Origin: a bacterium
Lineage (GTDB): Bacteria > Patescibacteriota > Minisyncoccia > 2-02-FULL-40-12 > IGHO2-01-FULL-4-A
DNA length: 37,490 nt
Direction of reading: 5' to 3'
Assembly: GCA_030698885.1 (NCBI GenBank)
Contig: JAUYLN010000030.1
Location: 1-37,490, forward strand
Part shown: positions 5,365-32,409 of the stretch, in pieces
Numbering within the stretch: the stretch's first letter is position 1
How the letters are laid out: every line of letters starts with the position of its first letter
The notes under the pieces: generated by a model
The model's input: the letters and a program-made list of their open reading frames with translations, nothing else
Database searches by the model: none
What the model was told of the DNA's origin: nothing
Program-made: the position numbers and the translations under genes

Positions 5365-5448
5365 GGAAGGGTGGCCGAGTGGTTTAAGGCGCCGGTTTCG
5401 AAAACCGGTGGGAGCAATCCCTCGTGAGTTCGAATCTCACCCCTTCCG
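5365..5448 (+). tRNA. tRNA-Ser (anticodon CGA)
   Basis: A class II tRNA of 84 nt: acceptor GGAAGGG/CCCTTCC, anticodon stem CCGGT/ACCGG with loop TTCGAAA, a long variable arm (TGGGAGCAATCCCTC) and T stem GTGAG/CTCAC with loop TTCGAAT. Anticodon CGA reads UCG. The discriminator is G and the DNA continues CA. The last 27 bases (with CA) recur in damaged form at 5643-5664. Confidence 0.95.
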
Positions 5449-5452
5449 CATT

Positions 5453-5492
5453 GATAATTTAAACGTATCCGAAGCGGTATGTTTAAATTATC
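5453..5492 (+). other. Long hairpin just behind tRNA-Ser
   Basis: GATAATTTAAAC pairs exactly with GTTTAAATTATC, extended by five more pairs including G-T wobbles, giving about 17 pairs closed by a six-base loop. There is no T-run behind it, so it may be a processing or structural element rather than a terminator. Confidence 0.75.
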
Positions 5493-5502
5493 TATCAGGG
5501 CT

Positions 5503-5633
5503 GAGGTTCGAACTGTTTTGTCCCCGTGGTGGAAATATTAAAACCGACAGAGATTCTATGGACTGGCTAAAGCACAGTCCATAAGAAACTTCTCTGAGAA
5601 AGGTTTTAAAGTCGGGGGGTCGGGGACAAAACA
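5503..5633 (+). ncRNA. Structured RNA candidate E1
   Basis: No credible gene lies between 5449 and 5782; this 131-nt part is densely base-paired. An outer 13-pair helix joins 5514-5526 to 5621-5633 (core GTTTTGTCCCC/GGGGACAAAAC). Inside, TTAAAACC (5538-5545) pairs with GGTTTTAA (5602-5609). The core is CAGAGA/TCTCTG (5548-5553, 5591-5596), an internal loop TTC opposite AGAAACT, the nine-pair stem TATGGACTG/CAGTCCATA and loop GCTAAAGCA. Element E2 at 14606 has the same core with compensatory changes. A GAGGTTCGAA block lies at its 5' edge. No Rfam family is recognised, and the transcribed strand is assumed from tRNA-Ser. Confidence 0.55.
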
Positions 5634-5642
5634 TATGTTTAT

Positions 5643-5664
5643 GTGAGATTCTCACCCCTTCGCA
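5643..5664 (+). repeat. Damaged copy of the tRNA-Ser 3' end
   Basis: GTGAG, ATT, CTCACCCCTT and CGCA repeat the T arm and acceptor end of tRNA-Ser (5424-5450), but most of the T loop and one C are missing. It sits at the other side of E1, like a worn attachment-site duplication. Confidence 0.65.
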
Positions 5665-5677
5665 AGTCCTACGATTA

Positions 5678-8734: not shown

Positions 8735-8754
8735 TCGGGGTTGTCCGATTTTTT
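8735..8754 (+). terminator. Possible second terminator
   Basis: ATCGG/CCGAT with loop GGTTGT and then T6. The stem is only five pairs, so it may be incidental; the T-run is shared with the palindrome that follows. Confidence 0.45.
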
Positions 8755-8778
8755 GACGAGGTTCAACCTCGTCAAAAA
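8750..8778. repeat. Dispersed palindrome, copy 1
   Basis: A perfect inverted repeat: T5 plus GACGAGGTT, centre C, AACCTCGTC plus A5. Related copies lie at 23871-23897 and 32366-32390. Confidence 0.9.
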
Positions 8779-14605: not shown

Positions 14606-14950
14606 TAGGAGAGCAGGATTCTAACTTTCATCAAGTTGAGAGGTCCGAAAATGAGATGATTTCTGAGGAGATTCTATGGGCGGGCTACGCACCGCCCATA
14701 AGAAACTTCTCCTGGAAGGCGCGACCTGCCTGCCGGCAGGCAGGCGACGAAAACGTGGTTTAAACCACATTGAGGAGGATCAACGACGAAAGCATCCATT
14801 TTCGGACTTCCCTTCGGGCGGAGTGAATTCGAGCAAACTTCTTTGTCGCTCGTCGCTCACGTACATTAAAGTACGTATCACTCCTCGCTTCGCGAATCCT
14901 GCCCGAATTCGCTCCGCTCAAGTGATGCTAGTTCGAATCCTGCTCTCCTA
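14606..14950 (+). ncRNA. Structured RNA candidate E2
   Basis: A 345-nt element without a credible gene, closed by a perfect 16-pair helix between its ends (14606-14621 and 14935-14950). Inside: GTCCGAAAATG (14643-14653) with CATTTTCGGAC (14797-14807); the E1-like core AGGAGA/TCTCCT, loop TTC opposite AGAAACT, stem TATGGGCGG/CCGCCCATA and loop GCTACGCA (14666-14713); a 20-base palindrome CCTGCCTGCCGGCAGGCAGG (14725-14744); GTGGTTTAAACCAC; a 16-pair helix with two wobbles (14816-14831 with 14904-14919); and ACGTAC/GTACGT. The 3' end, GTTCGAATCCTGC, looks like a tRNA T arm. It lacks the signatures of RNase P RNA, tmRNA, SRP RNA and group I/II introns that I know. Confidence 0.6.
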
Positions 14951-19514: not shown

Positions 19515-19973
19515 ATGAGCACAAAAGACTTGGGCAATCTCGCGGAGAATATTGCGGCCAGATACCTTGAGGAAGGGGGATATGAGATATTAGATAAAAA
19601 TTACGAAAAGGCGTGGGGGGAAATAGACATAATAGCCAAATATCAAAGATCAAATATCAAAAATCAAAATTTTGGTGTCCCGCTGGACGGGACGGCTAAA
19701 AAGGATGATGATGATGCTAAGGTAGCAGATGGTGATGATGATAAAACCATCATCTTTGTTGAGGTAAAGGCAAATAGGTCGGATTTTGCTGGTGATTTTG
19801 CTCCAGAAGAAAGAGTTAATGCACATAAGCTGGCGAAAATAGCTAAGGTCGCACAGTTCTATATGGATAACGAATTTGAGGGGCAGGATTTAGAGTGGAG
19901 GATAGATGCCATATCCGTTGTTTTTGATGAGCAAAATAAAAAAGCGAAGATTAAACACTTTAAAAACATATAA
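19515..19973 (+). CDS. yraN: YraN/UPF0102 endonuclease-like protein
   Basis: A 152-aa member of the YraN (UPF0102) family, which has a restriction-endonuclease-like fold and is often tied to DNA uptake or recombination genes. Family marks: GNLAENIAARYLEEGGY at the N terminus, WGEIDIIAK near residue 35-43, and FVEVKAN at about 75-81 (the E-x-K half). Between the two catalytic parts, where the family normally has a short turn, there are about 30 extra residues: a heptad-array part (KYQRSNIKNQN), a palindrome-encoded part (GVPLDGTAK) and an Asp-rich stretch from GAT repeats. No SD. The catalytic residues remain, so it is probably active. Confidence 0.88.
   Translation: MSTKDLGNLAENIAARYLEEGGYEILDKNYEKAWGEIDIIAKYQRSNIKNQNFGVPLDGTAKKDDDDAKVADGDDDKTIIFVEVKANRSDFAGDFAPEERVNAHKLAKIAKVAQFYMDNEFEGQDLEWRIDAISVVFDEQNKKAKIKHFKNI
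19637..19693 (+). repeat. Heptad array plus palindrome inside yraN
   Basis: Five period-7 units (CAAATAT, CAAAGAT, CAAATAT, CAAAAAT, CAAAATT; 19637-19671) are followed by the palindrome GTCCCG/CGGGAC with loop CTGGA (19677-19693). GAT triplets follow to about 19745. Confidence 0.88.
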
Positions 19974-23832: not shown

Positions 23833-23874
23833 CCGCCATGATTGCTTAAAGCAGTCATGGCGGATTTATTTTTT
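23833..23874 (+). terminator. Terminator of the 22252-23807 pair
   Basis: CCGCCATGA pairs with TCATGGCGG, followed by ATTTA and a T-run that merges with the next palindrome. Confidence 0.85.
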
Positions 23875-23897
23875 GACGAGGTTGAACCTCGTCAAAA
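23871..23897. repeat. Dispersed palindrome, copy 2
   Basis: T4 plus GACGAGGTT, centre G, AACCTCGTC plus A4: the same element as at 8750-8778 with the centre base changed. Confidence 0.9.
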
Positions 23898-24527: not shown

Positions 24528-27052
24528 TTCTAATTGACGGTAATGCGTTGGTTCACAGGGCATTTCATGCTTTGCCACCGCTTAAATCTCCAAAAGGCAT
24601 AATAACTAATGCCGTTTTTGGTTTTAGCTCCATTTTAATAAAGATGATAAAAGAACTTCAGCCTGAATACATCGCGGCTACTTTTGACTTGGCCGGTCCG
24701 ACATTCAGACATGAGGAGTTTGAAGAATATAAAAGCCAGCGCGTTAAGGCGCCGGATGAACTTTATGCTCAGCTTCCGCTTGTTAAAAACGTACTTTCGG
24801 CTTTTGGCATTCCAATGTATGAAAAGCCAAACTATGAAGCAGATGATGTCGTAGGCACGATGGCTGAAATAGCTAAGAAGAAAAAAGACGTTCAGGTAGT
24901 CATAGCTACCGGCGACCTTGATACTTTACAGTTGGTTGAGGGCGATAAAGTGGTTGTCTTCACTTTAAGAAAAGGCGTGACCGATACGGTCGTTTATGAT
25001 GAGAAAGCGGTCATGGAAAGATACGGGTTGAAACCCGAACAGCTGAATGATTACAGGGGATTAAAGGGCGACCCATCCGATAATATTCCCGGAGTGCCAG
25101 GAGTGGGGGAGAAAACGGCATCAGCCCTCATACAAACCTTCCAAAGTCTGGACGGTTTGTATGAGGCAATTTCCAATTTCCAATTTCCAATTTCCAAAAA
25201 AGACAAGGAGAAAATAAAATCTCCTTTATCTGAGAAACTTATTCAAAAGCTTCAAGACAACAAAGACCAGGCTTATTTTTCAAAACAGCTTTCAACCATA
25301 GTTACGGATCTTGATATTGATTTTTCCATTGAAAAAACGGAGTGGCGCAAGAATTTTAATAAAAAAGAGATTGAGAAAATATTCCGCGACCTTGGATTTA
25401 CCAGTCTTATAAAGCGCCTCCCGGAGCTTGGTGAAGGCTTTGAGGAAGATGTTAGAGAACAAACATTGTTTTCGGTAAAACAAGAAAAGACTGTCTATGA
25501 TTCAAAAACGGCTTATTTCATGGTGGGCATAGAAGACGAAGTGCTAAAAGAAGTTGCCTCAAGACCGGATTGGATCATTGCCGGTTATGACCTTAAATAT
25601 CTTTATAAAAAAGCCATCAAAATAGGCCGGGAATTAAATAATCCGGTTTTTGATACAAAGATTGCGGCCTATGTTTTAAATTCTGATCAGAAAAACTATG
25701 AGTTTGAAAAAATATTTTATGACCAGTTTAATGAAATGCCGGGGCCCGATCTTAAGCGTAATATTTCCAGACTTAAAAAAGCATTTGAAGATAAGCTAAA
25801 ATCCTATAATTTAGACAAGGTTTTCAATGACATAGAGATGCCGTTAATAAAAGTTTTGGCCGACATGGAGTCAAACGGCATTAAAGTTGATACGGATATT
25901 TTAGCCGGACTGCTCAAATCATCAAGCAAAGAGCTGGCAAAGCTTGAGAAGGAAATTCATAAATTGGCCGACATGGAGTTCAATATTAATTCGCCGTCTC
26001 AGCTTGGGGATGTTATTTTCAATAAACTCGGTTTGCTTGGCAAGGTTAGAAAAACCACCGGCGGAGCAAAATCCACTGCCGCCCCGGAGCTTGAGAAGCT
26101 AAGAGACGAACATCCCATAATTGAACTTATAATGCAGTATCGTGAGCTTCAGAAGCTTAAGACTACATATATTGAGCCGTTTCCGGCATTAATCAGTGAA
26201 AAAGACAAGAGAGTCCATACCACATACAACCAGGCCGGCGCAGCTACCGGCAGGTTATCTTCGCAGGATCCTAATTTGCAGAACATTCCTGTCAGGACAG
26301 AGCTTGGTCAGGAATTCAGGAAGGCCTTTGTTGCCGAGCCCGATTATCTGCTGACTGCTTTTGATTATTCTCAAGTTGAACTCCGTGTCGCGGCCCATCT
26401 GGCCAAAGATAAAAAAATGATAGAAGCGTTTCGGGCAGGGGAGGATATTCACACTGCAACGGCCGCAGAAATATTTGGCGTGAGCAAGGACAAGGTTGAT
26501 AAGGAAATGCGACGTCAGGCCAAGGCGCTTAATTTTGGGGTGCTTTTTGGCATGGGCCCGATAGGGTTTATGAGGTCTTCGGGTGTTGATAGGAGCACTG
26601 CAAGGGAATTCATAGACCGTTATTTTGAAAAATTTTCAGGTGTGGCACGCTACATAGAAGAAACAAAACAAAAAGCTCATCGCGACGGATATGTTGAAAC
26701 TTTATTCGGCCGTAAAAGGCCGATGCAGGATATTTACTCAACCATGCCCCAAGTTAGGGCATATGCTGAAAGGATGGCGGTTAATATGCCTATTCAGGGC
26801 ACCGAAGCCGATATTATGAAGCTGGCAATGATTAAAGTTTATGAGTACCTCAAAGAGAATTTTAAAAAAGAAGATGTCAGAATGCTTCTTCAGGTTCATG
26901 ACGAGCTTGTTATAGAAGTAAAAGAAGATATTGTTAAAAAAATATCGCCTGAAATAAAAAGGCTTATGGAGTCGGTATGCGAGCTTGATGCCCCGCTGGT
27001 AGTTGATGTAAAGTCGGGCCATAATTGGCAGGAAATGAAGAATATCTACTAA
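24512..27052 (+). CDS. polA: DNA polymerase I
   Basis: An 846-aa repair and primer-removal polymerase. The 5' nuclease domain (LIDGNALVHRAFHALP; YEADDVVGT; GDLDTLQLV) fills residues 1-290. The middle 3'-5' exonuclease domain has lost its catalytic carboxylates (no D-x-E in YFMVGIEDE), so no proofreading is expected, as in Taq. Polymerase motifs: A, DYSQVELR near 617; B, RRQAKALNFGVLFGM near 669, where the usual Tyr of the O helix is Phe; C, QVHDELVIEV near 795. A heptad array adds NFQFPIS after the helix-hairpin-helix region. TTG start, no SD. The stop TAA begins another heptad array. Confidence 0.96.
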   Translation: MPKKLVLIDGNALVHRAFHALPPLKSPKGIITNAVFGFSSILIKMIKELQPEYIAATFDLAGPTFRHEEFEEYKSQRVKAPDELYAQLPLVKNVLSAFGIPMYEKPNYEADDVVGTMAEIAKKKKDVQVVIATGDLDTLQLVEGDKVVVFTLRKGVTDTVVYDEKAVMERYGLKPEQLNDYRGLKGDPSDNIPGVPGVGEKTASALIQTFQSLDGLYEAISNFQFPISKKDKEKIKSPLSEKLIQKLQDNKDQAYFSKQLSTIVTDLDIDFSIEKTEWRKNFNKKEIEKIFRDLGFTSLIKRLPELGEGFEEDVREQTLFSVKQEKTVYDSKTAYFMVGIEDEVLKEVASRPDWIIAGYDLKYLYKKAIKIGRELNNPVFDTKIAAYVLNSDQKNYEFEKIFYDQFNEMPGPDLKRNISRLKKAFEDKLKSYNLDKVFNDIEMPLIKVLADMESNGIKVDTDILAGLLKSSSKELAKLEKEIHKLADMEFNINSPSQLGDVIFNKLGLLGKVRKTTGGAKSTAAPELEKLRDEHPIIELIMQYRELQKLKTTYIEPFPALISEKDKRVHTTYNQAGAATGRLSSQDPNLQNIPVRTELGQEFRKAFVAEPDYLLTAFDYSQVELRVAAHLAKDKKMIEAFRAGEDIHTATAAEIFGVSKDKVDKEMRRQAKALNFGVLFGMGPIGFMRSSGVDRSTAREFIDRYFEKFSGVARYIEETKQKAHRDGYVETLFGRKRPMQDIYSTMPQVRAYAERMAVNMPIQGTEADIMKLAMIKVYEYLKENFKKEDVRMLLQVHDELVIEVKEDIVKKISPEIKRLMESVCELDAPLVVDVKSGHNWQEMKNIY
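25167..25194 (+). repeat. Exact heptad array inside polA
   Basis: CAATTTC four times in succession without a mismatch, in frame, encoding AISNFQFPI between the 5' nuclease and exonuclease-like domains. Confidence 0.95.
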
Positions 27053-27156: not shown

Positions 27157-28098
27157 ATGCCGGAATTACCGGAAGTTGAGACAATCGTTCGCCAGTTAAA
27201 TAAAAAGGTTATCGGCCTTAAGATTTTAGATGCCTGGACTGATTGGCCAAGAACCATTAAAACGCACAGTCTGATCAAATTTAAAAAAGAAATAAAAGGC
27301 CTCAAGATTTTGCGCGCCCATAGACGGGCAAAATATATAATGATGGATTTGTCCGAAGGAAAAACTCTTATAATCCATCAGAAAATTTCGGGGCATTTGC
27401 TTTATGGGAAGTGGATAGAGAAAAATCAAATATCAAATATTAAAAATCAAAATTACAAATTAAAAATTAAAAATGACCTTAAATTAAAAAATCAAAAATG
27501 GGTCGGGCTAGAGCCGGAGGCTTTATGGCAAGATCCGTTTAATCGTCATATCAGATTTTTATTGTTCTTAAATAATGGGAAAATGCTGGGGCTTTCTGAC
27601 TTAAGGCGTTTTGGCAAAGTGTTTCTTGGTGATACTGAAAAAATTGAGCACATTAATGAAATCGGCAGGTTGGGTCCGGAGCCCCTTGATGCTGGTTTTA
27701 ATTTTAAAAAATTCAGGGAATTGTTTCGTAACAAAAAAGGTAAAATAAAACAGGTTCTGATGGACCCGTTCTTTATTGTAGGCATAGGCAATATTTATTC
27801 GGACGAAATATTATGGTTCTCGGGAATCCATCCGGAACATCGTACGGAATCACTGAAGGAGGCGGAGCTTAAAAAAATATTTAAATATATGAAATCAGTA
27901 CTCAATAAGGCAATAGATGCAAAAGGGGATAGCCAGCAGGATTATAGGACTTTAGATGGTGGATTCGGCAATTATCAAAATATGACCATGGCCTATCAGA
28001 TGACAGGCGAGAAATGCAAGAAACATGACGGGGGAGTAATAAAAAGGATAAAAGTGGGTAGTAGAAGCGCGCATTTTTGTCCAGTCCATCAGAAATAA
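27157..28098 (+). CDS. mutM: Formamidopyrimidine-DNA glycosylase (Fpg/MutM)
   Basis: A 313-aa bifunctional glycosylase that removes 8-oxoguanine. MPELPEVETI gives the catalytic Pro2 and Glu3; the conserved Lys is in RRAKYIMM. GIGNIYSDEILW and DGGFGNYQ follow. The C-terminal zinc finger is unusual: CKKH and CPVH replace the normal two C-x2-C pairs, giving a C2H2 ligand set. The protein is about 40 residues longer than usual because of a Lys/Asn-rich insertion (about 88-118) encoded by a heptad array, between LLYGKW and DPFNRHIR. No SD; the ATG abuts the repeat spacer. Confidence 0.96.
   Translation: MPELPEVETIVRQLNKKVIGLKILDAWTDWPRTIKTHSLIKFKKEIKGLKILRAHRRAKYIMMDLSEGKTLIIHQKISGHLLYGKWIEKNQISNIKNQNYKLKIKNDLKLKNQKWVGLEPEALWQDPFNRHIRFLLFLNNGKMLGLSDLRRFGKVFLGDTEKIEHINEIGRLGPEPLDAGFNFKKFRELFRNKKGKIKQVLMDPFFIVGIGNIYSDEILWFSGIHPEHRTESLKEAELKKIFKYMKSVLNKAIDAKGDSQQDYRTLDGGFGNYQNMTMAYQMTGEKCKKHDGGVIKRIKVGSRSAHFCPVHQK
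27427..27496 (+). repeat. Ten-unit heptad array inside mutM
   Basis: Period-7 units starting CAAATAT, CAAATAT, TAAAAAT and grading into AAAAATT and AATCAAA, in frame. The TAA of the third unit is out of frame, so no stop results. Confidence 0.85.
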
Positions 28099-32347: not shown

Positions 32348-32365
32348 CCGACCTAGGCGACCATT

Positions 32366-32390
32366 ATTGACGAGGTTGAACCTCGTTAAT
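32366..32390. repeat. Dispersed palindrome, copy 3
   Basis: GACGAGGTT, centre G, AACCTCGTT within an ATT...AAT frame; one mismatch compared with copies at 8750 and 23871. Confidence 0.88.
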
Positions 32391-32409
32391 CTGGGCCTAA
32401 ATCCATTTG

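Follow-up and report, generated by a model that had tools for sequence, protein, structure and literature searches.

Two similar hairpins, E1 and E2, lie in a stretch of 37,490 nucleotides (the window, meaning the whole of the DNA that was analyzed) from a Yanofskybacteria-type member of the Patescibacteria, and they raise the question of whether they represent a conserved RNA or a different kind of sequence. A sequence-only reading had favored a conserved RNA, on the basis of a shared core with compensatory base changes.

A covarying hairpin family

Both hairpins are present where that reading placed them, and their helices do differ by four two-sided changes, of which TATGGACTG/TATGGGCGG and CAGAGA/AGGAGA hold two each. 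The covariance model built from these two sequences (R1) detected a third member in this genome (G000:C37:11843-11898, 45 bits), and when 384 related genomes were searched, 23 of them, all from the same order, gave about 50 matches in total (E <= 0.01). Because R1 finds further copies in this genome and its relatives, the resemblance between E1 and E2 is not due to chance. E1 itself scores 88.7 and 71 bits with models R1 and R2, respectively. No known family accounts for the hairpins, as had been supposed: Rfam identified only two tRNAs in the window, and none of its sub-threshold matches covers the E1 or E2 hairpin well.

The consensus reads (C)NACAGAGAUUC - variable stem - GGCUAAAGCAC - variable stem - GAA - ACU - UCUCCGAG, with an element length of about 39-55 nt. 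In an alignment of 37 copies, 93% of the cells were paired, both sides had changed in 12 pairs, and the covariation was 0.317, as compared with a mean of 0.098 after shuffling (reached in 0 of 500 shuffles) and 0.02-0.06 when the partners were slid. With 101 distinct copies, the corresponding values were 92% and 0.393, versus 0.123 for the shuffled and at most 0.076 for the slid controls. Fitting the alignments to the model makes them lean toward its structure, and the slid and shuffled controls serve as a counterweight. Since both lie far below the observed covariation, there is no doubt that the hairpin is conserved, despite the model-fitted alignments.

The asymmetric internal loop originally described, TTC opposite AGAAACT, turned out to be mostly helical. 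UUCU faces AGAA, with two-sided UA-to-CG changes in other copies, which leaves a bulged A and an ACU bulge. The pairing of UUC with GAA is further seen in copies reading GUUCC...GGAGACC, which are altered on both sides. The 3-nt bulge occurs as ACU, CCU, or ACC; higher in the stem lies a mismatch or small bulge. Some subfamilies retain the same base with an altered tip (L166, L029:6603, and L111), and in others the stem is shortened and the whole element measures about 39-42 nt. The second basal pair is A.C in 63 of the 104 aligned copies, corresponding to G.U on the opposite strand; thus, the folding strand is not established, and neither is the RNA strand that the sequence-only reading had assumed.

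Insertion at empty sites

The E1 locus contains the following features:

5482-5663, + strand: E1 host repeat, with the arms GTTTTGTCCCCG (5515-5526) and CGGGGACAAAAC (5621-5632)
5540-5607, + strand: hairpin hosting E1, formed by AAAACC (5540-5545) and GGTTTT (5602-5607); empty site AAAACC-GCAA-GGTTTT
5546-5597, + strand: E1 inserted hairpin element, 52 nt, missing from the otherwise matching G000:C27:48039-48169 (ACC-GCAA-GG)
5566-5574, + strand: E1 terminal loop GCTAAAGCA, which the alignments show to be the best-conserved segment of the family
5588-5590, + strand: conserved 3-nt bulge ACT, which, by pair counts, separates helices 5548-5553/5591-5596 and 5554-5557/5584-5587

The 52 nt of E1 lie between ACC and a GNAA loop, and the C27 copy, ...TATTAAAACC-GCAA-GGTTTTAAAGTCGG..., is empty. 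The target was therefore the GNAA tetraloop of the AAAACC/GGTTTT hairpin, which now reads GAAA (5598-5601). In this genome, the host repeat recurs at G000:C27:48039-48169 and C2:7169-7278. In the window, the repeat follows a tRNA-Ser gene (5365-5449), and this region (5365-5665) terminates in a partial copy of the 3' end of the preceding tRNA-Ser. The second copy (G000:C27:48039-48260) likewise follows another tRNA-Ser (TGA). The E1 host repeat is an element of about 200 nt without genes, situated at tRNA 3' ends.

The E2 locus contains:

14606-14950, + strand: E2 host repeat, an inverted-repeat element of about 270 nt minus inserts
14665-14716, + strand: E2 inserted hairpin element, 52 nt; three other host-repeat copies read TTTCT-AGGCG, uninterrupted
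14725-14744, no strand assigned: 20-nt palindrome CCTGCCTGCCGGCAGGCAGG, a second small insertion in the E2 host repeat, unrelated to E2 and not in the three empty copies

E2 comprises 52 nt between TTTCT and AGGCG, and three copies of its host repeat in the same genome are empty. Host-repeat copies with 93-97% identity lie at C12:59555-59835 (-), C6:153160-153430 (+), and C37:2438-2706 (+), in addition to more distant ones; the genome holds about 10 copies, of differing age. At its ends, GGAGAGCAGGATTCGAAC ... GTTCGAATCCTGCTCTCC, this repeat resembles the 3' end of a tRNA in inverted orientation. The CCTGCCTGCCGGCAGGCAGG palindrome occupies about 25 or more sites in the genome, including G000:C2:7232-7252, and sits in copies of two different repeats without target duplication.

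These boundaries alter the interpretation of the flanking motifs that had been attributed to both hairpins. The upstream GAGGTYCGAA is outside the element and is located in two different host repeats. The downstream GAAAGG/GAAGG block belongs to the element only in part, as the GNAA loop plus GG in E1 and AGG in E2 are host sequence.

Empty and filled sites were also found in genes. TypA carries a clean 51-nt insertion relative to the empty sites in three relatives, and fructose-bisphosphate aldolase carries one of 51 nt in the opposite orientation, with the empty site in another genome. EF-P and RecG contain clean insertions of 51 nt each (empty sites in other genomes). A thioredoxin-reductase-like gene has a net gain of 45 nt and another repeat a gain of 49 nt, with empty sites elsewhere. 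No target-site duplication was visible at any empty/filled pair read, including E1 and E2. The insertion ends are exact to within a base or two, because the target and the element share bases there. These observations demonstrate mobility on an evolutionary time scale; no present-day movement was seen.

Targets and in-frame copies

Of 119 sites, 109 have a C directly before the element, and most of the empty sites that were read already contain this C. Flanking stems of at least 7 bp were found at 19 of 124 sites, versus 4.2 expected and a maximum of 9 in 200 flank re-pairings. Furthermore, a second hairpin of related type is inserted within the element's own terminal loop, at GGC^TA, in L116, L119 (G009), and L199 (G032), and the nested insert is identical in two of these three. 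The excess of flanking stems and the nested copies indicate that exposed hairpin loops are favored, though not required.

Other copies reside within shared larger repeats (L030/L034/L060/L045/L032; L062/L063/L069; L181/L212). Larger inverted-repeat elements have acquired the hairpin and carry it along. L181 (G000:C10) and L212 (G032:C26) are the same repeat with a 42-nt hairpin, present in two families of the order; in L181, its ends read TAGACCTATTGCTTAATAA / TTATTAAGCAACAGGTCTA.

In the TypA protein of locus L065, comparison with solved BipA structures revealed 17 extra residues precisely at the element. A junction peptide predicted for TypA is:

TypA junction peptide: ..KKPTEILGAAKAHPQETSPSTGETR..

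Open reading frames also run through the element in SecA, GrpE, RecG, UvrC, PolA, MnmA, RpoC, GatB, EF-P, aldolase, the thioredoxin-reductase-like protein, and others. In the element-bearing genes, a Pfam domain spans the element or domains are intact to either side, and an in-frame copy adds about 13-17 residues to a conserved protein. Intragenic elements are 39, 42, 48, or 51 nt long, a multiple of three in 15 of 15 cases versus 27 of 55 elsewhere, a difference that is partly built in, as the genes were recognized by their open frame. Low-complexity repeats, CAATTTCCAATTTC and TCAAATATCAAAAATCAAA, at 25159-25194, 19632-19671, and 27415-27468, are found inside coding genes of the window, for example polA, and in relatives similar ones border the element where it has inserted in RecG, PolA, and UvrC.

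Origin, mobilization, and known systems

Copies were found in 30 of the 45 genomes of the order, at 1-19 per carrier. The R1 search detected no copy in about 339 genomes of other orders, and in the R2 search of 380 phylum-wide genomes, the only matches came from two genomes, both of the order. When 84,980 species genomes were scanned with an exact pattern, model-supported loci were retrieved, and the named records were mostly Candidatus Yanofskybacteria. A virus-borne origin was considered and rejected, as the model did not match at the two viral pattern hits, and another pattern found none. A fixed gene context was likewise rejected, since the neighboring genes are unrelated and vary from copy to copy.

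We conclude that E1 and E2 very probably belong to a mobile DNA element that folds as a hairpin, is non-autonomous, and has become dispersed through the Yanofskybacteria-type order. The hairpin inserts cleanly just 3' of a C (consensus C^NACAGAGAUUC...) at unrelated places, which include in-frame positions in conserved genes, the loops of hairpins already present, other repeats, and the element's own loop. It may move as a folded single strand, and a trans-acting enzyme would recognize the bulge and the GGCUAAAGCAC loop. Selection would presumably retain those insertions that are neutral or keep the reading frame open. Larger inverted-repeat elements carry it as a passenger as well, and none of this calls for a host function.

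Repetitive extragenic palindromes (REPs) are hairpin repeats of 20-40 bp, mostly intergenic and in some cases intragenic, that are presumed to be miniature transposons (PMC3733652). It is conceivable, albeit unlikely, that the hairpin is an ordinary REP family moved by a REP-associated Y1 tyrosine transposase (RAYT). Like REPs, it is a short covarying hairpin in multiple copies (up to 19 per genome); its size, form, and intergenic and intragenic sites are REP-like (PMC3733652), and Y1 transposase genes (Y1_Tnp) exist in 24 of the 45 genomes. However, these genes are missing from several copy-rich genomes (G009, G035, and G036) and from the best-stocked one (19 copies). The 30 Y1_Tnp loci of the order have no R1 match and one weak R2 match (L088), and the presence of copies is not associated with Y1 genes (Fisher p 0.23), so we rejected the Y1 transposase as the mobilizer. 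Moreover, unlike REPs, the element lacks conserved end tags (GTAG in 1 of 128 and CGTC in only 14 of 128), has no linked RAYT gene, is somewhat longer, and lies in frame in many core genes. IS110 was rejected as well, with zero matches in the 45 genomes and detected controls; a search for IS91-type Y2 enzymes gave zero matches, and its controls were likewise silent. Some genomes may have lost the mobilizing enzyme, or it may be of another kind than those searched.

The interpretation of the hairpin as a functional RNA, either a small RNA or a cis-regulatory hairpin such as a terminator cap, whose structure is kept for its RNA role, appears improbable. The strong covariation and the invariant loop would suit it, several copies cap terminator-like flanking stems (L067, L054, L072, L029, and L041), and a role as RNA might in principle explain why the loop and bulge are so strongly conserved. 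Conversely, the sites are unrelated among genomes, the copy number ranges from 0 to 19, and copies lie inside repeats and, in both orientations, inside coding genes. The covarying family proposed at the outset is thus genuine, but its status as a conserved RNA as such was not supported, as the empty sites attest to DNA insertion at unrelated places and in both orientations.

That the hairpin merely belongs to larger inverted-repeat elements and is never mobile alone, a notion suggested by the several copies in shared larger repeats, is contradicted by the clean insertions of 49-52 nt, in which it entered TypA, aldolase, EF-P, RecG, and the E1 and E2 hosts by itself, and is very hard to credit.

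Of the known systems, REPs and the Rickettsia palindromic elements (RPEs) come closest. RPEs are found intergenically and as in-frame fusions to conserved protein genes, have no known transposase, and are 105-150 bp long with 12-bp terminal inverted repeats (PMC2229807, PMC10969869). The mobile hairpin resembles them in its in-frame insertion into conserved protein genes, as in TypA when compared with BipA, and in SecA, GrpE, RecG, UvrC, PolA, MnmA, RpoC, and others, where Pfam domains lie to either side. It differs in its length of 39-55 nt (RPEs are two to three times longer), its single bulged hairpin, its fixed GGCUAAAGCAC loop, and its host, Patescibacteria, a distinction drawn from length and description. 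Miniature inverted-repeat transposable elements (MITEs) usually generate a target duplication, often with TA at their ends (table in PMC2229807). Like Correia/NEMIS, ERIC, and RUP, the hairpin is short and non-autonomous with an inverted-repeat fold; unlike them, it shows no target duplication at the empty/filled pairs read. We file it as a new variety among the small palindromic mobile elements, outside both RPE and REP. In the open-licence literature, we found no earlier paper on such repeats in the Yanofskybacteria-type group, although they may have been described elsewhere.

In-frame palindromic elements are known from Rickettsia, and the present element provides an independent, much smaller case in a very genome-reduced lineage. 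More speculatively, an element of about 50 nt that homes as a folded single strand into hairpin loops (those of terminators, other repeats, and the element itself), via an enzyme that is neither Y1 nor IS110, might constitute a new mode of non-autonomous transposition that adds 13-17 residues to essential proteins across the order; we regard this as possible but doubtful. Because single-copy genes (TypA, RpoC, SecA, PolA, RecG, and others) supply many natural allele pairs, one empty and one filled, insert tolerance, target choice, and the mobilizing enzyme become testable. The case also cautions that a finely covarying RNA candidate may turn out to be a mobile element.

Three near-identical palindromes of another sequence, TTGACGAGGTT(C/G)AACCTCGTCAA, were additionally observed at 8748-8777, 23868-23897, and 32362-32391.
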